Shown here: piece by piece, positions 12,035-62,003 of the stretch | Layout: the number at the start of each line of letters is the position of its first letter | Numbering within the stretch: position 1 is the stretch's first letter | DNA from: a virus | Length of the DNA stretch: 64,000 nt | Virus record (IMG/VR): IMGVR_UViG_3300013126_000012 | Span: 95,587 to 159,586 of that record | Direction: 5' to 3' (one strand) | The notes under the pieces: generated by a model | Seen by the model: the letters and a program-made list of their open reading frames with translations, nothing else | What the model was told of the DNA's origin: nothing | The model's database searches: none | Made by a program: the position numbers and the translations under genes

Positions 12035-12577
12035 TTACCAATCAATCATTACAAGTTTATTATTCCACACCATCACGTTGTCAGTTTTAAAATCTAAATC
12101 TAATTCTAAATCTGGAATATCTATTTTTTTAATGTCTTGTTGTAATGCTCGTAAAAAATTAATCAATTGAATATTTGTGTCGCGAGCACCATCTGCATCT
12201 AAAAAATCAAATATCGAAACTTCACCGCCTTGCTCTTGCGCATACGTTTTATAATTAGCAATGAATCGATTAACGACTATTTTTTGGTTACTTGATAATT
12301 CCGATGCTTTAGCCATTATATACATGTTATTTCCATCTACATAATATACCGGAATAAAAGTTGTATATCTGCTATAATTATCTACTAATTGTTCAGCAAC
12401 TCGGTATTCTTCTGTTTCTGTAGTTATTTTAAATAATTTATCTTCACCTTCAATTTCGTATACACGTCCATTATCGCCTTGTCCAAACAAAGAAAATTGT
12501 TTATTTTTAATTTTTTGCAAGATTCTGTTTAAATCTTTGCTATCTATTTCTACAAGTAAATTTCGTAAACGTATCAT
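12035..12577 (-). CDS. Protein kinase-like protein with capsid-targeting-like leader
   Basis: A 180-residue protein. Residues 1-10 (MIRLRNLLVE) form an L-x-E leader shared with other cargo candidates. The rest resembles a minimal kinase fold: glycine loop GQGDNGRVY at 32-40, a candidate ATP-binding lysine in LFKIT (Lys50), a candidate helix-C glutamate at 56-57, a catalytic-loop match DLDFKTDN at 160-167 (compare HRDLKPEN), and the metal-binding aspartate in IDW at 178-180 where the chain ends. There is no C-lobe beyond this, so it is either a truncated active kinase or a nucleotide-binding relative. It overlaps the preceding structural gene (TAATG). Confidence 0.65.
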   Translation of the reverse strand: MIRLRNLLVEIDSKDLNRILQKIKNKQFSLFGQGDNGRVYEIEGEDKLFKITTETEEYRVAEQLVDNYSRYTTFIPVYYVDGNNMYIMAKASELSSNQKIVVNRFIANYKTYAQEQGGEVSIFDFLDADGARDTNIQLINFLRALQQDIKKIDIPDLELDLDFKTDNVMVWNNKLVMIDW

Positions 12578-29636: not shown

Positions 29637-30662
29637 TTATTCTAAAATTAATTGGGCGTTTTGACAACATTCAACATTCAACGCAATCAATGATTGTTCT
29701 TTAGCCTTAGCTTCAACCATAACATCAAGATCTGCAACACCATATGTAGCAGGAAGCCGCGTAATATAGTCGGCATGAGCCTGCTCCTTGATCTTGGTAA
29801 ACTCCTTGTATTGTTTGTGAAATGTAGGCCATTTGGGCAAGTCGGCAATGTCAATGTTGTGATGTGCAAACATACGCTCAATAAGAATTTGTGCTTCGCG
29901 TCGACGAGACTCGCTGTAATGAGTACATTGTGTGACACCATGACGTTGCCATGTCTCACGCGCCATAAAAAATGCTTCTTGTTCGGATAAGTCACCAGTA
30001 TTGAATGTGTGATGCCAATAGTCAAACGTAATAGGTATAGCAATTTCGGTATGCAACATGGAATACAATTCGCGCACGGAATACATGGAGGCCTTGTCAT
30101 CATTCTCGATAACTAAACGTGCCTTGCAAGAATCTGAAAGACGATCATAGTTATGTAACCACCGTGCAATGGTGCCGGGCTTGTCATTGTAAGTAGCACC
30201 AACGTGAATATTGATCTTGTTCTCAAAGCTAGGAGCAAAGCCCATCATATCAAAGAGCTCAGAATGCCGTTCAAGACCAGTGATGCTATTATCAACTACC
30301 GTAGCATCAGGACTACCTAGGATATGAAATGGACCAGGATGCGTTGTGATGCGATGGCCATGCGCACGAGCAAAGTCACCAGCAGCACGTAGATGCTGCA
30401 CAATAAGATCGATGTCAGGCAAATCTGCAAGCTCGTAATGATTCCAACGAGGAAAGAGCTCAGAGCCTAAACGAAACAAACGAATACCATGTGCTTCATT
30501 CCATTGCAGAATAGTTAACAAATCGCGGGCATTAGCAAGAGCAATGTCGGATGCTAATTGCAAACCGCCTAATTTAAATTTGCGATCAATCATGGCACGA
30601 CCGGTACGAATACCTTGGGCGGATAACTCCATGTTGATACAGGCATAACCATAACGTATCAT
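29637..30662 (-). CDS. uvsE: UV DNA damage endonuclease (UvdE/UvsE family)
   Basis: A 341-residue TIM-barrel repair enzyme that nicks 5' of UV photoproducts. Family signatures: GYACINMEL at the start, NARDLLTILQWNEAHGIRLFR with the LGSELFPRW segment, HGHRITTHPGPF, the ENDD metal-binding stretch (about 170), FDYWHHTFN and HYSES. The family's metal ligands (several His, Glu, Asp) all have plausible counterparts. Codon use and base composition are visibly more GC-rich than the surrounding genes, which suggests recent acquisition. T4 instead uses DenV, an unrelated enzyme. The upstream spacer is divergent from the first cassette gene. Confidence 0.92.
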   Translation of the reverse strand: MIRYGYACINMELSAQGIRTGRAMIDRKFKLGGLQLASDIALANARDLLTILQWNEAHGIRLFRLGSELFPRWNHYELADLPDIDLIVQHLRAAGDFARAHGHRITTHPGPFHILGSPDATVVDNSITGLERHSELFDMMGFAPSFENKINIHVGATYNDKPGTIARWLHNYDRLSDSCKARLVIENDDKASMYSVRELYSMLHTEIAIPITFDYWHHTFNTGDLSEQEAFFMARETWQRHGVTQCTHYSESRRREAQILIERMFAHHNIDIADLPKWPTFHKQYKEFTKIKEQAHADYITRLPATYGVADLDVMVEAKAKEQSLIALNVECCQNAQLILE

Positions 30663-30728
30663 ATATGTTTTATTTTATATTATGTAAAATGTTTGAAAAA
30701 TCCAAATTACGTTATTTTTTTTTGCATG

Positions 30729-30736
30729 ATATTTAT
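30729..30736 (+). promoter_or_regulatory. Late-type promoter box (plus strand, cassette unit 1)
   Basis: ATATTTAT read on the plus strand, 20 bp before the ATG at 30756, with AAAAAGG between. It shows that the box is directional: it reads ATATTTAT in the coding sense here and ahead of minus-strand genes. Confidence 0.65.
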
Positions 30737-30755
30737 ATGTAATAAAAAGGACGTA

Positions 30756-31337
30756 ATGAAAAATATTTTATCAGAAAACATGTTGCGTTTCGGAACCAAA
30801 AACTTATCCGAAGCTGCACAACGGCAACTAGTTGTCAAATCAATCATGGAAACCATTAATCAGCATGGATTGCATAACGCCGTACGACGAAGGCTGATGG
30901 AACAGACCGTTAACGAGAATGTAACAACGTACGTTGAAAACTACCGTAAGGCCGTTATAACAGCTTTTCCGAATACGTTTGCCAATGTGGCGGGGAAAAA
31001 CGATGCCACCGGATACATACCGTTTCCCGGAAATAACCCTCAAGAATACATATATGTTTATACAAATGGAGCAGTAACATTGCCTAACGATGCACCAAAA
31101 TTGAAGACCCAGCTACAGAATGTGCACGATAAGGTTGTATTAAATGGCGTTAGCAATAACGATGCAAACTTAAAGAAATATATTGCTAATCTTACGCAAA
31201 ACCAATACCCACCCGAAACTCCACAAGGAATAGCATTAAAATCATTTAATCAACCCAATATTATAGCTATGAACAAGGCATTTTTGGCTTATAAAACATT
31301 TTTGGACAGCCAAAACCCGCCAGCAGCAAGCCAGTAA
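30756..31337 (+). CDS. Cassette protein 1: capsid-targeting-like leader with unique body
   Basis: 193 residues from the ATG at 30756, chosen for its AAAAAGG site and because the leader matches the two paralogues. The leader MKNILSENMLRFGTKNLSEA has L-x-E sites at 5-7 and 17-19 and continues in a second conserved stretch ending RRRLMEQ near 49. The body (50-193) is unlike the others and has no recognised motif. A stretch of 87 bp (30771-30857) is identical to the third unit (33364-33450). A bidirectional terminator follows. Confidence 0.75.
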   Translation: MKNILSENMLRFGTKNLSEAAQRQLVVKSIMETINQHGLHNAVRRRLMEQTVNENVTTYVENYRKAVITAFPNTFANVAGKNDATGYIPFPGNNPQEYIYVYTNGAVTLPNDAPKLKTQLQNVHDKVVLNGVSNNDANLKKYIANLTQNQYPPETPQGIALKSFNQPNIIAMNKAFLAYKTFLDSQNPPAASQ

Positions 31338-31392
31338 TCAACAGCTAAGATGGTAAAAAAGCCTTAATTTTTAAGTTTTAAAATATACATAG

Positions 31393-31420
31393 AAAAAGCT
31401 CTATAGCGGAGCTTTTTTTT
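31393..31420. terminator. Bidirectional terminator between convergent cassette genes
   Basis: AAAAAGCTC and GAGCTTTTT form a 9-bp stem with a 7-nt loop, with T-runs on both strands. It lies between the ends of the plus gene (31337) and the minus gene (31435). Confidence 0.7.
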
Positions 31421-31434
31421 GTGTTCAATAAATT

Positions 31435-31848
31435 TCAATATGTTTTAATAATATCAAAATCAATCCATTTCTGATATTTCACTAAATCATCAGTAAACCA
31501 ATACCAAGTAACTGATTGATGCCCTGTCATTTCAATCAATAAACCATTATCCCATGCATCTAATATTTTAACCTGGATCGTGTTGTTTATTTTTAATACA
31601 GAAATTGGTGATTCATACGCGAGTTTGTTGTCTTTAAATTTTGTTAAATGATTGTTGTTTAAATCTAAAACATACAAATTATTAACTTTTCTAGGAGATT
31701 CTTCAATCATCCTCGGATTTGCAAAAACTTCAGAAACAGTTTGCGAAGAATCTCCATAAAATGATTGAACTTCATTGACTTGAATTTTTATTATTTGTGA
31801 CTGAATGTTTGTAACAAATAAAATAGCAATACACACTAAACGTTTCAT
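31435..31848 (-). CDS. Secreted protein of cassette, unit 1
   Basis: 137 residues. A signal peptide is clear (MKRLVCIAILFVTNIQS, cleavage near SQ), then beta-rich sequence with IQVNEVQSFYGDSSQTVSEV. It is a paralogue of the protein at 32788-33207, which shares IQxxExQxFxGDS. It is probably exported to the periplasm or outer surface of a Bacteroidota host. It is transcribed away from the next plus-strand gene and has a TATAAT-type promoter. No known family is recognised. Confidence 0.7.
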   Translation of the reverse strand: MKRLVCIAILFVTNIQSQIIKIQVNEVQSFYGDSSQTVSEVFANPRMIEESPRKVNNLYVLDLNNNHLTKFKDNKLAYESPISVLKINNTIQVKILDAWDNGLLIEMTGHQSVTWYWFTDDLVKYQKWIDFDIIKTY

Positions 31849-31865
31849 AACTGGTTAACTTTTTA

Positions 31866-31871
31866 ATTATA
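31866..31871 (-). promoter_or_regulatory. TATAAT-type promoter of secreted gene (repeat 1)
   Basis: TATAAT on the minus strand followed by TAAAAAG. The segment from about 31844 to 31884 is nearly identical to 33203-33243. The -10 context matches the early promoters of the 45-52 kb region, not the late box. Confidence 0.5.
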
Positions 31872-31927
31872 TTACAATAATATAAAATAAAAGATTAAAA
31901 TCCAAATTACGTTATTTTTTTTGCATG

Positions 31928-31935
31928 ATATTTAT
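31928..31935 (+). promoter_or_regulatory. Late-type promoter box (plus strand, cassette unit 2)
   Basis: ATATTTAT 20 bp before the ATG at 31955. The surrounding 90 bp, from CCAAATTACG through the leader start, is almost identical to the unit-1 promoter. Confidence 0.65.
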
Positions 31936-31954
31936 ATGTAATAAAAAGGACGTA

Positions 31955-32785
31955 ATGAAAAATATTTTATCAGAAAACATGCTGCGGTTTGGAACCAAAA
32001 ATTTATCTGAAGCAACCATACGAAGATTAACTGAAGCTGAAGACCCAATTGATCCGGCAGCAATTGGCTTTCCGAATTGTCCTGCAAAAACTGTGAAAGA
32101 CTTTGTTGATTGGTATATAAAATATCTTACACCATCAACTGGTTGTGTTGGACAAACATTGCTTATCATGAAACCAGAATTTGGATCGTTCAACCTATAT
32201 GAAAAAAATTTGGTTGCAAGTATTGTTGGAAAAGTAACAGTAGCATCTAGTTTTAATTTTTCATATCGATCAGGGAAAACCGATCCTCAAGGTACGACTA
32301 AGGATTCTTCCGTTTTCATATGGGATACTGCAGCAACTAGAAATTATGATTGGGCTAAACAAACAGTAAAAATTAGCGATACTGAAACATACCTCCCGGG
32401 TTTATACAATGTACATGACATGGTGGATGCTACATTATCTTTAGTACCAAATGGTGGGGTTGCCGTGCAGAGCTATTCAATTCCAGTACTTGTTGGTGGT
32501 ACTGATTCTAGTCAGACTATAGACACAGACCCTATATCAAAAAAGAAAGCCGGTACAATAAAAATCACCCAAAACGGAAATGTATCTGGAGCAATATCTG
32601 GAGCACCCATTACGGGTATTTTTCCATGGGTAGATTTATGGACGTTAATGCCAACCAATTTGGACGGATATGGGTTTACCATGGCTGCTGGCGGCATCGA
32701 AGTTCCGATACAAACCGACGCGTCTATGAAAGATTGGATTGCTAAAAACATGAAAAACGGAAAATACATAGGACCAAAAGAATAG
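31955..32785 (+). CDS. Cassette protein 2: capsid-targeting-like leader with unique body
   Basis: 276 residues. It has the same leader MKNILSENMLRFGTKNLSEA as units 1 and 3 but diverges after residue 20, with a further L-x-E site (RRLTEAED, LTE at about 25-27). The body is a globular-looking beta/alpha protein of unknown fold, with a Gly/Ile-rich section around 215-235 and a basic C-terminus. The ATG is set by the AAAAAGG site. It ends 2 bp from the convergent secreted gene with no terminator between. Confidence 0.75.
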   Translation: MKNILSENMLRFGTKNLSEATIRRLTEAEDPIDPAAIGFPNCPAKTVKDFVDWYIKYLTPSTGCVGQTLLIMKPEFGSFNLYEKNLVASIVGKVTVASSFNFSYRSGKTDPQGTTKDSSVFIWDTAATRNYDWAKQTVKISDTETYLPGLYNVHDMVDATLSLVPNGGVAVQSYSIPVLVGGTDSSQTIDTDPISKKKAGTIKITQNGNVSGAISGAPITGIFPWVDLWTLMPTNLDGYGFTMAAGGIEVPIQTDASMKDWIAKNMKNGKYIGPKE

Positions 32786-32787
32786 TA

Positions 32788-33207
32788 TTACTGCGATTTT
32801 GTAATTTTAAACTTAGTGTATACGATGTATCTAGTATTTAAATCTATTTTTTCTTTATACACCAGGCTTTCGTTCATTGGATCTGGGTTCCACATTAATA
32901 GGCCTGGGTAGTAAGGATTTAGTATATAGATATAAACCAATCCATCGGCATTCACTACGTTTACAGGCCAATCAGAAATCAAAACGCCTTTAAAATACCA
33001 ATCATGATGATTGTTTGACACGTCAATAACATATCTTGAATGTTTGGTTAGTTTTGGTGAAGATTGACGATTGATAGGGTCTAAAATTTGAGACATTGTT
33101 AATGCAGAATCTCCAAAAAATGTTTGACCTTCAGTTATTTGAATTTCAAGAATTTGACTGTATGCCGAAATACTACTTAATAAAAACAATAATAATAGCC
33201 GTTTCAT
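32788..33207 (-). CDS. Secreted protein of cassette, unit 2
   Basis: 139 residues with a typical signal peptide (MKRLLLLFLLSSISAYS, cleavage before or after Q). The mature part, IQITEGQTFFGDSALTMSQI, is paralogous to the unit-1 secreted protein, and the C-terminal beta-strand sequence is also alignable. It is probably located in the periplasm or on the surface. No enzymatic motif is seen. Confidence 0.7.
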   Translation of the reverse strand: MKRLLLLFLLSSISAYSQILEIQITEGQTFFGDSALTMSQILDPINRQSSPKLTKHSRYVIDVSNNHHDWYFKGVLISDWPVNVVNADGLVYIYILNPYYPGLLMWNPDPMNESLVYKEKIDLNTRYIVYTKFKITKSQ

Positions 33208-33224
33208 AACTGGTTAACTTTTTA

Positions 33225-33230
33225 ATTATA
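33225..33230 (-). promoter_or_regulatory. TATAAT-type promoter of secreted gene (repeat 2)
   Basis: TATAAT followed by TAAAAAG on the minus strand, in a segment of over 40 bp almost identical to the unit-1 copy. Confidence 0.5.
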
Positions 33231-33289
33231 TTACAATAATATGAAAACGTTTCCGTGATTCCAAATTTCATTATTTTTTTTTTTGTATG

Positions 33290-33297
33290 ATATTTAT
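33290..33297 (+). promoter_or_regulatory. Late-type promoter box (plus strand, cassette unit 3)
   Basis: ATATTTAT about 51 bp before the ATG at 33349. The spacer differs from units 1 and 2, and an AAAGGA site lies 10 bp before the ATG. Confidence 0.5.
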
Positions 33298-33348
33298 TAT
33301 TGTTAACAAGAACATATTTATTAAAACCCCATAAAGGAATACAAACAA

Positions 33349-34044
33349 ATGAAAAATTTACTTTCAGAAAACATGTTGCGTTTCGGAACCAAAAACTTAT
33401 CCGAAGCTGCACAACGGCAACTAGTTGTCAAATCAATCATGGAAACCATTGATGAACATGGTTTGCATGGTGCTATTCGTCGACGTTTAATGGAACAACA
33501 GGTACCTGCTGATCCAGCATGGATGACTAAAGCTAAAGACGCATTGGCATCTCAAAATATACAAGACGGTAAAGAAATGTTATCAGTAGGGATAATTAAG
33601 AAAGGATCAACATATGTAAATCCAGAAAATATAGTGGCTTCTGGTGGAATGTCGTTTCCAAGTTCAAACGGATTTTCTGTTGCAGCAAAAGGTGCCACGT
33701 GGTATCCGTCACCAACTAACACAGTGGCATTCTGCTCAGCAATGTTTTTTGCTAATGAAGATATAATACAAAGTTTAATTTCAAAAGATGGGGGATACGA
33801 TCAGGCTAAATTACAACAATTACTTGCCGGAACTTATAAACACAACGGTACCGTTGTTACGGGACAAAAATCTAATATTGTTTGGTATCCATCAATTCCA
33901 TCATATGTGGCAACCGGAGGTGGTAGACTGTATGTTTTTACTGGAGACGGTGATGCTATGAGGACCGCAATGTTGGCACCATATGCAACAAGTCCTGGTA
34001 AGAAAGGTGATGTTCCAGCGGTATATACTCCAAGTGGGCAGTAA
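33349..34044 (+). CDS. Cassette protein 3: capsid-targeting-like leader with unique body
   Basis: 231 residues. The leader (MKNLLSENMLRFGTKNLSEA and on to RRRLMEQQ near 50) is the same as unit 1, and 87 bp of DNA are identical between them. The body (52-231) is different: glycine-rich beta sequence with VWYPSIPSYVATGGGRLYVF near 180. No family is recognised. It ends in front of a strong hairpin terminator. Confidence 0.75.
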   Translation: MKNLLSENMLRFGTKNLSEAAQRQLVVKSIMETIDEHGLHGAIRRRLMEQQVPADPAWMTKAKDALASQNIQDGKEMLSVGIIKKGSTYVNPENIVASGGMSFPSSNGFSVAAKGATWYPSPTNTVAFCSAMFFANEDIIQSLISKDGGYDQAKLQQLLAGTYKHNGTVVTGQKSNIVWYPSIPSYVATGGGRLYVFTGDGDAMRTAMLAPYATSPGKKGDVPAVYTPSGQ

Positions 34045-34062
34045 ATAAAAAACAAACACAAA

Positions 34063-34091
34063 AAATAAGGCAGAGCAATCTGCCTTATTTT
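34063..34091. terminator. Strong bidirectional terminator
   Basis: AAATAAGGCAGA and TCTGCCTTATTT make a perfect 12-bp stem with loop GCAA and flanking A and T runs. It lies between the convergent cassette gene 3 and the CAP-like gene. Confidence 0.85.
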
Positions 34092-34109
34092 ACTATGCGA
34101 GCAATCAAT

Positions 34110-34673
34110 TTATTTTACGACGATAATAACAGCATATGCTCCTTCATATACGCTATCATCAAAATAGAATCCGTATTCCGATGCAGTTGAGTCAGTCATT
34201 TCAAAAAAATCTGTATCGGTAAGGGTAGCTAAGTCAATGACGTAGTCGCAATAGGCTTTTTCTTTATTTTCGAAGTGCATTACGCGATTTTGATATAGTA
34301 CCGGTTCTAAAAGATAATAAGTATCCGGAAATTCAGCTGGCAATTCATTTTCAAACGTATGTTTAATGCTTTGCGATATTGAATCATTATGTTTCAACGG
34401 ATGTCGGTTGTATTGTGCCCGCATTTCATTCAATGCTTTTCCAAAATTCATTCGAACCGAATCCTCATTCAAGAAAACCTTCCTTTCGGTGTAATCCGTT
34501 TCATTGATGGCAACCACTTCTATCAAGGAAGATAAAAAATCTTTAGCATTGGGATCTGGTAACGTATATTTTATAATATTAGAATACCAAGGTATATTTG
34601 TTCCTACAACGGTTTGATGCTGTGCAACAACGATATTAGAAATCAATAGAATTACAAACAATAACTTTTTCAT
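34110..34673 (-). CDS. Secreted CAP-like protein of cassette, unit 3
   Basis: 187 residues. The signal peptide MKKLLFVILLISNIVVAQ has typical Bacteroidota style. The mature part has features of the CAP/SCP superfamily: LNEMRAQYNRHPLKHND resembles the first CAP helix (HNxxRxxxxxxPLxWD), and YGFYFDDSVYEGAYAVIIVV looks like its final strands. CAP proteins are secreted and often bind lipids or act at membranes. The fold call is moderate. The promoter (34698-34703) repeats the TATAAT element of the other secreted genes. Confidence 0.6.
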   Translation of the reverse strand: MKKLLFVILLISNIVVAQHQTVVGTNIPWYSNIIKYTLPDPNAKDFLSSLIEVVAINETDYTERKVFLNEDSVRMNFGKALNEMRAQYNRHPLKHNDSISQSIKHTFENELPAEFPDTYYLLEPVLYQNRVMHFENKEKAYCDYVIDLATLTDTDFFEMTDSTASEYGFYFDDSVYEGAYAVIIVVK

Positions 34674-34697
34674 GGCTTTTAATTATTTAATTGGTTA

Positions 34698-34703
34698 ATT
34701 ATA
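34698..34703 (-). promoter_or_regulatory. TATAAT-type promoter of secreted gene (repeat 3)
   Basis: The minus strand reads ATATTATTGTAATATAAT, the same block as in the two other secreted-gene promoters, with a shuffled leader after it. Confidence 0.45.
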
Positions 34704-34744
34704 TTACAATAATATGAAATTAAAACATACTATCCAACCAATTA

Positions 34745-35305
34745 TCAATCTTTTTTTATGAAGCCACTCAAGAAATCTCGCTGACGTTGGATTGCGGTAT
34801 CAAGTTCAGAATCTTTTCGTTTTTTTCCAGTTCCCGCAATATTTCCATTAGAGCTAGATTTAACAACATCTTTTCTCTCGTTGTTAGATCGGGGTGGTTT
34901 GATTGCTTTAGAATTTGTTGCAGATACATGTTTGCTACTTGCAGACTTGCTTCCGCTTTCATCTTCTGTCCTTCGGGTGTCTGTAAAAAGCTCTGTATAT
35001 GTGCTTGAATGTCCGGTTTGGATGCGTTTCCTAAGTTCATCTTGTCCAATAGATCTTGTTTCATCGATGTTGATGCATCCTGTTGTATACGCTGTTTTAT
35101 GCCCCTTGATTGAAACGCCGCACGGATAACGTGTATTATGCGATTCAACCATGTACTGAATACCCCAACTACTTGTTTTAAAAGTTTTAACATAACCATA
35201 TTTTTTTGCACCCAACCAAGTAAAGAATACTGCATCATCAATTTTAAATTGCAGTTTTTCAAACTGTTTGATGATAGCATCTGGTGCCTGTTGTTTTTTT
35301 GCCAT
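34745..35305 (-). CDS. Hypothetical protein with disordered basic tail
   Basis: A 186-residue protein. The N-terminal 85 residues are structured and SH3-like in strand pattern (DDAVFFTWLGAKKYGYVKTF). Residues 90-165 are S/K/N/T-rich and disordered. The end (DTAIQRQRDFLSGFIKKD) is a helix. A second frame is open across the disordered part (see 34768-35064). The function is unknown. Confidence 0.65.
   Translation of the reverse strand: MAKKQQAPDAIIKQFEKLQFKIDDAVFFTWLGAKKYGYVKTFKTSSWGIQYMVESHNTRYPCGVSIKGHKTAYTTGCINIDETRSIGQDELRKRIQTGHSSTYTELFTDTRRTEDESGSKSASSKHVSATNSKAIKPPRSNNERKDVVKSSSNGNIAGTGKKRKDSELDTAIQRQRDFLSGFIKKD
34768..35064 (-). CDS. Possible overprinted ORF inside 34745-35305
   Basis: The alternate frame gives 98 residues from the ATG at 35064 (90 from the one at 35040, which has GGA 6 bp upstream). 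It is well formed and helical: DIQAHIQSFLQTPEGQKMK followed by LTTREKMLLNLALMEILREL. The host frame is low-complexity over exactly this stretch, as expected for overprinting, but a chance open frame cannot be excluded. Confidence 0.3.
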   Translation of the reverse strand: MKQDLLDKMNLGNASKPDIQAHIQSFLQTPEGQKMKAEASLQVANMYLQQILKQSNHPDLTTREKMLLNLALMEILRELEKNEKILNLIPQSNVSEIS

Positions 35306-43325: not shown

Positions 43326-43826
43326 TCAGGACTCCGCGCGTGTAGCGATGCCGGTGCGCACCAACCAAAGCCCCGAAGGCCGATCCAGCACCCGATATCC
43401 TGCCGTAGTGAAGCGCGTTGCATTGGCCGCTAACAAGGCACGATATATGCGTGTTTTTTGAGCTTCCTTGTCCCCGCTGCTAGTGTCAGATCCCGTTATG
43501 TCGATGCTTGCAGGTTGCCATTGTGTTGCAAAATCTATGAGGGCTTCCAGCACGGTAGCCATGAGACGCAGGTAATTGACTTGCCCCGCTGCCGCGCTAC
43601 GTGAATGCGCCACAGTATGGCCTTCACCGTCTTGGGTAGGCGTCAACATGGCAAATGCCCATTGTTGGTGTCCTTGGTCCACCATTGCCAGAGTGATGCG
43701 TACACCATCTGCTTGAAACTCGGCTTCGCGATAGTTTCTTGAGTTTTTGCGCCAGGTAAACTGGGTTGCATAAGGTGTCACCCCGCCTAAAGTAATTTCC
43801 GTTAAAAGTTGCGTTAATTGTATCAT
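43326..43826 (-). CDS. Packaged-type protein with capsid-targeting-like leader
   Basis: 166 residues from the ATG at 43826 (a longer frame is rejected because the leader family starts here). The leader MIQLTQLLTEITLGG has LTE at 8-10. The body shows alternating strands and helices (VRITLAMVDQGHQQWAFAML) but no known motif. The base composition is clearly more GC-rich than most neighbours, as in the gene just upstream, suggesting transfer of the pair. The gap to that gene is 4 bp. Confidence 0.65.
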   Translation of the reverse strand: MIQLTQLLTEITLGGVTPYATQFTWRKNSRNYREAEFQADGVRITLAMVDQGHQQWAFAMLTPTQDGEGHTVAHSRSAAAGQVNYLRLMATVLEALIDFATQWQPASIDITGSDTSSGDKEAQKTRIYRALLAANATRFTTAGYRVLDRPSGLWLVRTGIATRAES

Positions 43827-43830
43827 GACG

Positions 43831-44388
43831 TTAAGGCTTTTTTGGTAAAGTATAACACACCATATATTCCGTAATGTTGCCCGGGTCGACCTTGTACCGT
43901 ATAGGACCTTGCCGATTGGGCTTTTCGCGTGTTGCATCTAGAATGCTACTTGCACCTGGATCGTGGCCCATCCCGCCTCTACGATCGATCTGCCAATGCT
44001 TAGCGTCATCAGCTTCTGCAAGCATTGGTATTGTGATTGTTACATCGTACGTACCTTTGTTGACTCGACTAGTAATTGCAACGTTGGCAATGTTGGGTTG
44101 CAGCGGTTGATCCTTTAACCATGGATTGCATTCGCATATCAACACGTTGAATATTTGATGCAAGGTATCTCCGCTGCCGCGATTAGCATGCGATATAGCC
44201 CATCCGCTGGCCGGACCTGTATATGCAAGCCGAAATGAAGAGCTAGATTTTTCAATATCGATTTTGGGACGTACGCGACCATCGGCCGTTTTTCCCCCAT
44301 CCCAATTGGCTTTGGTTTCTGTCCAATGTATACAGGATTTCCAAGATTCACCCGTCCATTCCGTCAACAATTGTTTTAATCGTATCAT
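43831..44388 (-). CDS. Packaged-type protein with capsid-targeting-like leader
   Basis: 185 residues from the ATG at 44388. The leader MIRLKQLLTEWTGES has LTE at 8-10 and matches the kinase-like protein leader (MIRLRNLLVE). The body is a mixed alpha/beta protein, with TYDVTITIPMLAEADDAKHW near 115-135, and is not recognised. It is GC-rich. A late box lies 4 bp before the ATG, leaving no ribosome-binding site. Confidence 0.65.
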   Translation of the reverse strand: MIRLKQLLTEWTGESWKSCIHWTETKANWDGGKTADGRVRPKIDIEKSSSSFRLAYTGPASGWAISHANRGSGDTLHQIFNVLICECNPWLKDQPLQPNIANVAITSRVNKGTYDVTITIPMLAEADDAKHWQIDRRGGMGHDPGASSILDATREKPNRQGPIRYKVDPGNITEYMVCYTLPKKP

Positions 44389-44392
44389 ACTA

Positions 44393-44400
44393 ATAAATAT
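44393..44400 (-). promoter_or_regulatory. Late-type promoter box abutting a start codon
   Basis: Coding-strand ATATTTAT then TAGT, then the ATG at 44388. There is no room for a Shine-Dalgarno site. Confidence 0.55.
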
Positions 44401-44449
44401 CGGTTTCCGTAACTTTACGATGTAAAGCTCCTGGAAACGAGACGATTCG

Positions 44450-44896
44450 TTATTTTCGTACATAGGGTTTCAATAAATCCTCTATAGTTCGTTGTTTGGA
44501 TGCATCCCAATCTGCTGCTTTGATGGTAGAATTTACCATATCGCCGGTCTTGGCTCGTACTCCAGCACCATAAACTCGCACTTCGACCTCATTGTTTTCT
44601 GGTTGTTCATAATCCGTTAAGATTGTAATTCGTACTTGATGTGTTAATGATTCCGGAAATTTCGCCTTCCATCCTTCCCCATATGACCAAATTTGGAATG
44701 TTGGATCATCATATGTCCCAACAACAGCATCCTGTGGTTTTCTTCTTGTGCTACTTTGTAGTTCGAGCTTGTGTGTTTTAACATACTTGCGTGCCCATTG
44801 GTCGAGCTCCAGGCCTTGTTTTTGAATGGGGTCTGTTGGAAGATCTCCATTTTCTGTTAAATATTGTTTCCAGAGTGTTAGGTATGTTCTTTGCAT
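44450..44896 (-). CDS. Packaged-type protein with capsid-targeting-like leader
   Basis: 148 residues. The leader MQRTYLTLWKQYLTENG has LTE at 13-15 and resembles T4 leaders such as MKTYQEFIAEA. The body has EVEVRVYGAGVRAKTG and is followed by a helix. No family is recognised. A late box is 31 bp upstream. Confidence 0.65.
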   Translation of the reverse strand: MQRTYLTLWKQYLTENGDLPTDPIQKQGLELDQWARKYVKTHKLELQSSTRRKPQDAVVGTYDDPTFQIWSYGEGWKAKFPESLTHQVRITILTDYEQPENNEVEVRVYGAGVRAKTGDMVNSTIKAADWDASKQRTIEDLLKPYVRK

Positions 44897-52205: not shown

Positions 52206-52394
52206 TTAAACTTTTTTTATCAAAGCCGTTATTTGAAAATTACCGCGAGGCAAATCCAACCGATGCATTAACCCGGCAATTGCACGATTCTCCGTTGTGA
52301 CATTGTCTACATTTGGTTGATATGGGAATTGGTGCGTTGCATTGTTTTGTACATCCAACACTATAAACCCGGCATACATTTTGTTAATCTTCAT
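52206..52394 (-). CDS. Hypothetical small protein
   Basis: 62 residues in a beta-strand, helix, strand pattern (MYAGFIVLDVQNNATHQF). It is preceded by an early-type promoter (TTGGAT and TATAA). Not recognised. Confidence 0.55.
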   Translation of the reverse strand: MKINKMYAGFIVLDVQNNATHQFPYQPNVDNVTTENRAIAGLMHRLDLPRGNFQITALIKKV

Positions 52395-55003: not shown

Positions 55004-55390
55004 TTATCCTTTAATTTTTTGTACTATCTGCATAAGATAATTGTAACGGAACTTTGAATCATCATATGGTCCAACCAATCCTTTAAATTTGCGAATATTT
55101 GCTTCAAGTTTAGATACTTTATCAATTACTGTATCCGTTGTTGCGGGCACTCGTTGAATGCGATTAATAGCTTGGCTAATCGATTTGTCCCATTCTTTCG
55201 CTTGCATCTTAGGTGTGATGCGTTCGAAGTCTTTATATTCATTATCAAGACTAAAGTTAAATCCACCTATTTCGCGCGCGGAGCTACTCGCAGTTCCACC
55301 AAACACTGGATCTTTCATTACCTGATACGTATCTGGACCCAAGTCTTTGAAGTTTCCTTGTTCTAATAAAATCTTGTGTAAACGTATCAT
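55004..55390 (-). CDS. Packaged-type protein with capsid-targeting-like leader
   Basis: 128 residues. The leader MIRLHKILLEQGNF has LLE at 8-10 and matches MIRLRNLLVE and MIRLKQLLTE elsewhere. The body is helical at the C-terminus (VIDKVSKLEANIRKFKGLV), with a Gly/Ser-rich segment near 30-45. Not recognised. It has its own late box and terminator, so it is a single-gene unit. Confidence 0.65.
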   Translation of the reverse strand: MIRLHKILLEQGNFKDLGPDTYQVMKDPVFGGTASSSAREIGGFNFSLDNEYKDFERITPKMQAKEWDKSISQAINRIQRVPATTDTVIDKVSKLEANIRKFKGLVGPYDDSKFRYNYLMQIVQKIKG

Positions 55391-55855: not shown

Positions 55856-56206
55856 TCAATTTAATTGTTTTGCTTGATCAACATGTTTGCAACGCTTCCT
55901 AAACCCAAAGCCGGAGCATGTACATGACCATTGCTTAAAGCGAACGGTAACGGTGTATGCAGTACCCGTTGAGCCTTTAATTGTGAATTGTTTACGATCC
56001 GTTGGAATGTCACGTTGCTTTGCTTGATAGCGAACCCATATATGAGATGCATCTTCGTAAGTAACATTTTCAGCAATGCGTATGCTACCGCCTTCGGCAT
56101 CGTGAAACAACATGGTGCGACCTGATAACAAATTTGCAATTACTGGCGCATACAAGGAAGGTCCTCTACGCATTGCTCTAACTTCTTGCTTGGTGTATAC
56201 TTTCAT
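55856..56206 (-). CDS. SWIM zinc-finger protein
   Basis: 116 residues with a SWIM motif: WSCTCSGFGFRKRCKHVDQA gives Cys95, Cys97, Cys106 and His108 (CxC...CxH). SWIM fingers bind DNA or proteins. The N-terminal 90 residues are strand-rich. A frame-shifted ORF over the same bases is a shadow. It may be a small host-binding factor. Confidence 0.75.
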   Translation of the reverse strand: MKVYTKQEVRAMRRGPSLYAPVIANLLSGRTMLFHDAEGGSIRIAENVTYEDASHIWVRYQAKQRDIPTDRKQFTIKGSTGTAYTVTVRFKQWSCTCSGFGFRKRCKHVDQAKQLN

Positions 56207-60047: not shown

Positions 60048-62003
60048 TCATTTGATTGTTTTGATTACTTCACCATTTTCAAATACTTCTATAACGATGC
60101 CGGTAGCATTTTCATCGATGGTTTGTCCTAGCAGATTAGTTCGTCGAGCCACAACGCGTATGCTGGTTTTATTGTTGATTACGATTGGATCAAAAGTTTC
60201 GTAAGCACCATCGGTATCATATTGAGTTAGTCTATAGTAGTTGTATACGGGTTTAACGGCATTGTCTGTAACATCGTAATGAAGCTCTTGAGTCGAATTA
60301 CCGGCTGCAGCAACCGTTCCCAGTTGAGACCATGTAATTCCATTTTCACTTTTTTCTACTACAAAATGTGTCGTGTTGTGTTCCGTAGCAGTTGCCCAAT
60401 AAATAAAGTTGCTTTTGTCTACTGGCTTACCACTGAAGTAAAGCAACTCAATTGGTAAAGCTCCCATTGTTATTATCAGGTACTGCTGGGTTTGAGTATT
60501 GCATCCAGACGCATTGGATACTGTTACACGAACTGCTCCATTTGTTGTTGTTTGTGGCCATGTAAACGTTGTTGTAGGTGAGTTTGAGTTTGGTATGTTA
60601 ACCCATAATGGTGCAGAAACAGTTTGAGTATAAGCCCATACATAACTTGCTCCTATAATCGGAGTGATTGAGTATGTTTCAGCAGTACCAGCAATGATAT
60701 TGTTATTGCCTGATATATTGCTTACTAGAGGTAAACTAGGATTAACGTTTATTGTTGTTGATGTTGATGCATTGCAACCGTTTGATGATACTGTAAGTGC
60801 ATAAGACTGTGTGCTAGTTGGGGATGCCCATGGACTAGGTGCAGAGGTATTAGTTAAATTAACATTTGGTGTCCAAGTGTAGGTTATAGGCGCACCTACT
60901 GGTAATCCCGTTACTGTGCTAACGAGTTGCGTTGAGTTACCTGCACAAATAGGGTTAGAGCTAGGTGTGATACTAACTGATGGTATTGGATTGACTGTTA
61001 TAGTAACTGAAGCACAACCTGCACTGAACTGACTATTGTTATAGTTTCTTACAAAATATGTAGTTGTAACATTGGGTGCAACGGCAATGGAGTTACCAGT
61101 ACCTATAAAAGTTGTACCACATCCTCCCGTATACCAATACGCTGTACCTACTACACCATTTGCATTTAACGTAGTCGATCCACCACTACACAGTGCCATG
61201 ACACTAGCTGATATTGAGGTTGGGTTTGTTGGTGCAGGGGGTGGAGTGCAGCTTCCTGAATAAGTTACATTAATCGTAAAACCATTACCCACAACAGAAC
61301 CATCTGATAGGAATTGAACGGTTAACGGAACTCCTGCAGGTGATGATATATTTGGTATGTTAGAGTTCATCCAATAGGTTCCAATAAGAATTCCACCTGT
61401 TCCGACTCCTTGAAAAATTCTAACTCTATCACAACAAGACTCACCAGACGAAGAACCTGATAGCGAAATAACAGCAGCTCCGCCATTATTCAATACTGTA
61501 TATCCATTTGCGTAGTTTGAGTAACTTCCAAATTGACCTCCATGATCATATAATGTTGTGTTTGTTCCGCAGTTAACGGTATTGAATCCGCTATAAGGAA
61601 CAAGCGTTCCTCCACCTCCTCCACCTCCGCCTCCGCCACATTGCGCAGTTCCAATTGAACCACTTGAAGTTGATGTACCTGTTAGAAGAGTTTGTAGTGG
61701 TATGACTGTGGCTCCTGTGCTGCTTGTTACACGTATTCGACACTCACTAGACCAACTACCAGTTGTAGAACGCCATACTCGAATTGTTTGTCCAGCTGTC
61801 GCACTAAAGGTAACAGTTGCTGGTCCGTATCCGCTACTCAGCGTTACATTAGATACTACAATAACTCCGTTTACTGACACAGATGCGCGGTTACCCGTCC
61901 AACCATCTCCATATGTGTCAGTCATATGTAATGTATGTATACAAGATTGAGAAAATGAGATTGCTGATAACAACAATATAAATGCAAGTAATAGTTTCTT
62001 CAT
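60048..62003 (-). CDS. T9SS-type surface protein with CUB-like domain (type A sorting domain)
   Basis: 651 residues. The signal peptide MKKLLLAFILLLSAISFSQ is Bacteroidota-like. Residues about 20-130 are a beta domain with a run of ten glycines after it; about 150-255 resembles a CUB domain (CGTNTTLYDHGGQFGSYSN, GESCCDRVRIFQG, VPLTVQFLSDGSV). Several Ig/PKD-like units follow. The last 100 residues look like a type A T9SS sorting domain (LYFSGKPVDKSNFIYWATA; end RTNLLGQTIDENATGIVIEV). It should be exported through the host type IX system to the cell surface. A phage late box drives it. Confidence 0.75.
   Translation of the reverse strand: MKKLLLAFILLLSAISFSQSCIHTLHMTDTYGDGWTGNRASVSVNGVIVVSNVTLSSGYGPATVTFSATAGQTIRVWRSTTGSWSSECRIRVTSSTGATVIPLQTLLTGTSTSSGSIGTAQCGGGGGGGGGGTLVPYSGFNTVNCGTNTTLYDHGGQFGSYSNYANGYTVLNNGGAAVISLSGSSSGESCCDRVRIFQGVGTGGILIGTYWMNSNIPNISSPAGVPLTVQFLSDGSVVGNGFTINVTYSGSCTPPPAPTNPTSISASVMALCSGGSTTLNANGVVGTAYWYTGGCGTTFIGTGNSIAVAPNVTTTYFVRNYNNSQFSAGCASVTITVNPIPSVSITPSSNPICAGNSTQLVSTVTGLPVGAPITYTWTPNVNLTNTSAPSPWASPTSTQSYALTVSSNGCNASTSTTINVNPSLPLVSNISGNNNIIAGTAETYSITPIIGASYVWAYTQTVSAPLWVNIPNSNSPTTTFTWPQTTTNGAVRVTVSNASGCNTQTQQYLIITMGALPIELLYFSGKPVDKSNFIYWATATEHNTTHFVVEKSENGITWSQLGTVAAAGNSTQELHYDVTDNAVKPVYNYYRLTQYDTDGAYETFDPIVINNKTSIRVVARRTNLLGQTIDENATGIVIEVFENGEVIKTIK

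Follow-up and report, generated by a model that had tools for sequence, protein, structure and literature searches.

A hypervariable island of putative head-cargo genes with linked secreted-partner genes in uncultured T4-type phages

The injected head proteins of phage T4 form a known anti-defence hotspot, the described cases being single genes in phages of enteric bacteria. For the T4 internal proteins Ip1-3, the attachment of a leader to unrelated bodies in such a hotspot is proven (PMC12373910, PMC9026906), and the T4-type prohead protease cuts after glutamate (PMC9026906). T4 also encodes Spackle (gp61.3), a periplasmic superinfection-exclusion protein that acts on an incoming virion component (PMC7677548). 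Here we describe an island of three cassettes in a 64,000-base stretch of viral DNA, the window, which comprises positions 95587-159586 of the 159,586-base record IMGVR_UViG_3300013126_000012. (Coordinates are those of the window unless prefixed G000, for sites elsewhere in the same genome, or L, for other loci compared.) In each cassette, a leader is joined to a different body and is followed on the opposite strand by a gene for a signal-peptide protein. The island is probably a hypervariable store of head cargo resembling the T4 internal proteins, in which each cargo gene is linked to a separately promoted secreted partner and the two are exchanged together, a reading built on sequence comparison.

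A paired cassette at a fixed locus

Relatives of the leader were collected from IMG/VR with a degenerate DNA pattern for ENMLRFGxKNL, which matched 77 stretches of uncultured viral DNA; the non-redundant full-length leader proteins, the window's own included, number 71. The cassette architecture of the window is found again in about 70 other contigs. A convergent gene follows 61 of the 68 non-redundant leader genes used for the pairing count, and 53 of these 61 partners carry a signal peptide by a crude rule, against 28 convergent signal-peptide neighbours for 1,048 other genes of the same contigs. This count should be free of bias from the pattern search, since the partner is absent from the leader query. 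Where both flanks are present, 32 of 37 leader genes sit between a gene for a UvdE-like endonuclease and a conserved gene whose product begins MAKKQ, the exceptions being cassettes on the opposite side of UvdE. The interval between these flanks ranges from 284 to 7,343 bases (30 loci). In the window, it holds the following features:

29637-30662, minus strand: UvdE-like UV endonuclease gene, left flank of the island (Pfam PF03851, E 1.1e-58; 72-97% conserved beside leader genes at most related loci)
30727-30736, plus strand: U1 promoter motif TGATATTTAT, from upstream 8-mer enrichment; also at portal, sheath, tube and core genes
30756-31337, plus strand: U1, leader and body, 193 amino acids; single body relative found, L039/L092 (72%)
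30756-30905, plus strand: U1 leader, 50 codons, long class, ending RLMEQ
30771-30857, plus strand: 87-base exact repeat, identical to 33364-33450
31391-31420 (approximate), unstranded: terminator-like hairpin AAAAAGCTC...GAGCTTTTTT between convergent U1 and S1, read off the sequence
31435-31848, minus strand: S1, partner of U1, signal peptide and all-beta domain; relatives S2, L039 (82%) and L047
31870-31883, minus strand: dyad core TATTACAATAATAT of the S1 partner promoter
31926-31935, plus strand: U2 promoter motif TGATATTTAT
31955-32785, plus strand: U2, leader and body, 276 amino acids; zero body relatives in 2.9 million viral contigs
31955-32035, plus strand: U2 leader, 27 codons, short class, ending RRLTE
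32788-33207, minus strand: S2, partner of U2, signal-peptide protein homologous to S1, separated from U2 by a 2-base gap
33229-33242, minus strand: dyad core of the S2 partner promoter
33288-33297, plus strand: U3 promoter motif TGATATTTAT
33349-34044, plus strand: U3, leader and body, 231 amino acids; body relatives L021 (38%), L043/L090 (41-48%) and L048 (22%)
33349-33498, plus strand: U3 leader, 50 codons, long class
34061-34092, unstranded: inverted repeat AAAATAAGGCAGA..TCTGCCTTATTTT, resembling a bidirectional terminator, between convergent U3 and S3; self-complementary match to L021 at 34062-34091
34110-34673, minus strand: S3, partner of U3, signal-peptide protein, possibly a divergent CAP-domain protein
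34702-34715, minus strand: dyad core of the S3 partner promoter
34745-35305, minus strand: conserved gene MAKKQQAPDAI..., right flank of the island

A sequence-only reading of the window had proposed these three units, starting at 30756, 31955 and 33349, and their minus-strand companions at 31435, 32788 and 34110, and its coordinates are all borne out. The 87-base identity that it noticed between U1 and U3 is exact and maximal, with a mismatch on either side; repeats of this kind do not arise by chance. The promoter block that U1 was said to share with U2 spans, with the start included, about 85-90 bp with one indel. Each partner does have a promoter block of its own: those of S1 and S2 are identical at 46 of 47 bases, that of S3 matches at 74% over 47 bases, and a 14-base core is the same before all three. 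The bodies, as claimed, do not match, since U1, U2 and U3 fall into separate clusters and a profile comparison of U1 with U3 gave a probability of 0.2%. Among the partners, S1 and S2 are homologous and S3 comes from another family.

The promoters belong to two classes. The most enriched upstream 8-mers of the genome are TATTTATA and ATATTTAT, and the ATATTTAT(A) motif lies upstream of 62 of 71 leader genes versus 13 of 61 partners; it also precedes the portal, sheath, tube and prohead core genes. Partner promoters instead have a different, interrupted palindrome, TTCTTATATTTATAGTATAA, which scores best in this genome before S1-S3 and two small genes (W52206 and W55856). These small genes, at 52206-52394 and 55856-56206, may share the expression class of the partners. 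Because there are two promoter classes, cargo and partner are probably made at different times.

Exchange at both ends of the cassette

Close relatives of this phage, with UvdE proteins 93-97% identical, carry different first cassettes. To locate the breaks, 31 cassettes lying directly beside UvdE were compared in 437 pairs with unrelated bodies, the pairs not being independent, since the phages are related. In these, homology extends from UvdE through the promoter and ends inside the leader in 376 and near the last L-x-E in 21, together 397; the remaining breaks fall before the start codon (37) or past the leader (3). Between the window and L032, homology runs as far as 30904, in the last leader codon, and resumes at 34641 inside the S3 signal peptide, with scattered cassette-end matches only in between. 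Since homology breaks off in the leader and in the S3 signal peptide, both cassette ends appear to serve as arms, with the interior, both body and partner, replaced. U1 is itself a mosaic, with the promoter of U2 and the leader of U3: the segment between about -62 and +28 matches U2 almost perfectly but not U3, after which the sequence becomes identical to U3 and departs from U2.

A leader swap is also found outside the island, where the gene G000:61647-62039 has the leader MIKLKNLLRE but shares its body, at 84% identity, with L023, whose leader is of the ENMLRFG type. Recombination in the leader with turnover of cargo, as the earlier reading had it, is thus strongly supported by the hypervariable locus between conserved flanks, the breaks in the leader and this one body under two leaders; across related phages, cassette order is not fixed. 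The swapped gene adjoins a fourth, variant leader gene (ENMRRFG) of this genome, which has no partner and lies outside the island (G000:61342-61617, within the region G000:61342-62039). A second, partner-less leader site in the family adjoins a gene for a single-stranded DNA-binding protein, and Flavobacterium phage immuto has a leader gene at the same position. At L090:4869-5531, a leader has decayed (MKNLFLKNALPFAMQRQ...) and the body is kept, beside an intact homologous unit.

Does the partner travel with the cargo? Where two bodies are similar, so are their partners in 21 of 35 comparisons, against 45 of 1,396 for dissimilar bodies (54 non-redundant pairs). The permutation mean is 1.6, and none of 10,000 permutations reached 21; the non-matches are mostly CAP partners whose divergence puts them beyond the reach of BLAST. 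Four loci, with differing leader classes, contain the U3-S3 pair. Judged from these comparisons, the partner belongs to the unit that is exchanged. Partner type follows body type, and the partner's promoter and start make up the second of the two conserved cassette ends.

Packaging and the role of the partner

The genome is that of a T4-type myovirus, in which the major head protein, portal, S77 head maturation protease, tail sheath, tail tube and baseplate wedge are recognised. By terminase and protease, the named phages nearest to it are Microcystis phage Mel-JY01 and phage immuto (53-59% identity). Signal peptides ending in AQ or SQ, together with the Flavobacterium relatives, suggest a host among the Bacteroidota; terminase relatives in genome bins came to only two contigs of metagenome-assembled genomes and gave no pointer to the host. 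The leader has zero tblastn matches in 50,697 records of named phages and none among 84,980 bacterial and archaeal GTDB genomes, and a literature search found no relevant paper naming its motif. Elsewhere in this phage genome, window positions 60048-62003 encode a protein of surface type, with a signal peptide and an Ig_7/CHU_C-associated domain (PF19081, E 2e-9).

The leader consensus is MKNxLAENMLRFGxKNLSESxxxxLxxxxLxE. The 71 leader proteins fall into 42 body clusters, and E-N-M-x-R-F-G-x-K-N-L is invariant, or nearly so. U1 and U3 are alike to residue 50 (...RRRLMEQ) and U2 diverges at about residue 20, which divides the leaders into two classes, long and short. A second conserved point lies about 10-35 residues past KNL, where L-x-E precedes a small or polar residue. 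The pattern [LIM]xE[QAGSDTN] stands at the leader end in 65 of 71 proteins, where shuffled sequences average 16; in body interiors it occurs in 5 of 69. Prohead proteases of the T4 type, such as T4 gp21, cut at L-x-E. The S77 protease is present in this genome (PF03420, E 2.8e-34) and in 10 of 32 leader-bearing records, among them every record of at least 109 kb; the remaining records are shorter fragments. Head proteins of this genome have the motif near their start as well, at the presumed cut sites LVKE/SS in the major head protein, GLTE/AA in the product of 87003 and SLTE/SS in the protease. Packaging of the cargo in the head, an inference, is thus well supported, if indirectly, by the protease gene, the L-x-E leader end and the promoter motif common to head and tail genes.

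The same phage may possibly package a second, larger set of proteins. About a dozen further proteins start with MIRLKxLLxE or similar (window 12035-12577, 43326-44463 and 55004-55390; G000:10262-17148, 38054, 53331 and 61647), and in this genome 16 proteins have the motif at their called starts versus 5.9 expected by shuffling.

Under the head-cargo reading, the cargo gene would be expressed together with the head proteins from their common promoter motif, and its N-terminal leader would act as a capsid-targeting propeptide that draws the cargo into the prohead. There, the phage's own S77 protease would cut the leader after L-x-E, and the freed body would be kept in the head and, by analogy to T4 Ip1-3, delivered with the DNA into the next host. 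The second gene would supply a partner exported through Sec by the infected cell, and its own promoter/operator dyad would allow expression at another time. Promoter and leader would form one homology arm and the partner's promoter and first codons the other, so that recombination, whether between phages or between cassettes, could replace cargo and partner jointly.

What would the partner do? Our tentative preference is for a cognate immunity or superinfection-exclusion factor in the envelope of the infected cell, a role for which T4 Spackle offers a precedent and which gains appeal from the linked exchange and rapid diversification. A companion role is almost as likely, since immunity proteins are not typically of the CAP or rhomboid kind. 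Of 55 partners scanned, 14 are CAP-domain proteins, 3 are rhomboid proteases and the rest belong to unnamed families. The S1 model is a confident all-beta fold; its Foldseek resemblance to the NHBA C-terminal domain, TbpB and LolA (best E 3e-3, TM score about 0.4) is not taken to indicate function. S3 has no Pfam match, and its profile comparison with the CAP partners (PF00188) gave 93.5%, the signal peptide carrying part of the score. No partner matches Spackle in sequence. The rhomboid protease is the convergent partner of three unrelated cargos in separate phages (L019:5193-5948, L028:1129-1707 and L046:854-1462).

Several observations weigh against head cargo exchanged with a cognate partner. 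None of 70 cargo proteins matches any Pfam family, which gives no indication of toxin or inhibitor activity, and the bodies have zero matches among solved structures. The U3 fold model is poor (predicted local distance difference test 61) and likewise without structure matches; U3 being the one body folded, the absence of any relation between the bodies is a finding on their sequences. Tandem cargos sometimes have one common partner (L039/L092, L090 and L007), L092 has an extra cargo between its U1 and S1 homologues, and at L043 the S3 homologue is 90% identical beside a body at 41%, so that there is no strict one-to-one lock. The body-partner association could in part reflect linkage in related phages and not binding. 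Rhomboid proteases and CAP proteins would be unusual as immunity proteins, and the cultured relatives checked, immuto and Mel-JY01, are without this leader.

The immunity role could be extended to a virion-carried polymorphic effector-immunity system, directed against other phages or the host, in which strain-specific effectors are delivered from the head and exported cognate immunity proteins exclude or neutralise rival phages. With the two genes converging between constant outer ends, ordinary homologous recombination could exchange them as matched pairs. This is possible but rather doubtful. No toxin domain is recognisable in the cargo, where PADLOC added two marginal single matches to the empty Pfam scan. 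The large CAP-associated bodies gave an impression of OmpA-like character (GSSTSxV...LxxxRxxAI), which is not claimed, as their profile found no solved relative.

Alternatively, the partner could be a helper or co-effector, secreted early and affecting the host envelope jointly with the delivered cargo, for instance to block other phages or to remodel the surface. The recognisable enzyme and interaction folds among the partners speak for this, as does a promoter differing from that of the cargo, and the body-partner association fits equally well; but the exchange of whole units and their extreme diversification are typical of effector-immunity pairs, and a helper is somewhat unlikely.

An island of anti-defence cargo pure and simple, as in T4, with the secreted genes an independent accessory set using the same hotspot, is unlikely. 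T4 Ip1-3 have the leader alone in common and inhibit different GmrSD enzymes (PMC12373910), and the bodies here are very diverse, but convergent pairing at 61 of 68 genes and the body-partner association are hard to reconcile with independent insertion. It is improbable that the leader directs or processes proteins for a destination other than the head, such as the tail tube, a nucleus-like compartment or a precursor of a ribosomally synthesized and post-translationally modified peptide. The wide range of body sizes, about 95 to 650 amino acids, could be taken in its favour; the L-x-E end and the S77 protease in the same genomes, the same motif in the head proteins and the likeness of the MIRLKxLLxE leaders to the T4 10-residue signal speak against it. 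The modified-peptide version is rejected, the bodies being too long and the leaders having neither a double-glycine nor any other leader-peptidase motif. A single gene pair duplicated in tandem and decaying, with no functional exchange, is a very improbable account. Tandem copies are known (U1-U3, L007, L020 and L090 with its decayed leader), but unrelated bodies follow near-identical leaders and promoters, breakpoints recur at the same place between different phages, U1 is a promoter/leader mosaic, and relatives with exchanged cassettes between the same flanks are already seen.

Comparison with known systems

Head cargo exchanged with its partner is closest to the T4 internal proteins IPI-III, whose capsid targeting sequence is processed by gp21. 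Both systems place a short N-terminal propeptide, ending at the glutamate of L/I-x-E, on unrelated proteins, have a T4-type S77 protease, and vary in gene number within a genomic hotspot. The short MIRLKxLLxE leaders of this genome look similar to the 10-residue T4 signal. However, the leader of the island has 27-50 residues instead of 10-19 and is of unrelated sequence, with no Pfam or convincing PHROG match of leaders or bodies to the T4 signal or internal-protein bodies, and its packaging role is a prediction. Nearly every cassette here also has a convergent signal-peptide partner with a promoter of its own, and the cargo reaches about 700 amino acids. By analogy rather than demonstrated homology, the tag-and-hotspot part would work like a T4 internal-protein island.

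Polymorphic toxin-immunity systems (PMC3482391), including the proposed MuF/capsid-loaded type, resemble the island in a constant N-terminal part, a C-terminal part exchanged by recombination, and a linked small gene that is co-exchanged. Here, by contrast, the partner gene converges on the cargo gene instead of lying downstream in the same orientation, and its product bears a signal peptide; no known toxin domain is present, and the setting is a T4-type phage genome. Spackle is likewise a phage-encoded exported protein, as is predicted for the partner, which would be expected to meet an incoming virion component in the periplasm; unlike Spackle, the partners are paired with variable cargo, and they share no sequence with it.

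Phage immuto (MW353175), whose terminase and protease (54%) make it a close cultured relative, has repeated leaders of its own ending in L-x-E: MENFDLKKFLVENKLTxNSKILKE (MENFDLKKFLVEN...) in 4 genes and MKKQILSEQFxRMQxLAGIITE in 2 genes. Sites are L084:1803-2318, L084:25061-25456, L086:3806-4354, L086:11675-12139 and L086:17631-18931. Neither the ENMLRFG leader nor a convergent secreted partner or such an island was seen there.

A convergent, separately promoted secreted partner co-exchanged with its cargo is undescribed as far as the literature searched shows. An island comparable to the anti-defence hotspot of T4 is present in uncultured phages of a broad family; among well-described cultured phages, those nearest to the family infect Flavobacterium. 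The leader of the island can be searched by pattern and leads to dozens of uncharacterised cargo families, beside which a linked secreted partner was unexpected. If the reading as exchanged head cargo is true, the island offers a ready catalogue of virion-delivered proteins, and cassette swapping would let phages keep altering the proteins that they deliver into bacteria. The convergent layout with constant outer ends would be a simple route to swapping two interacting genes as a matched set.

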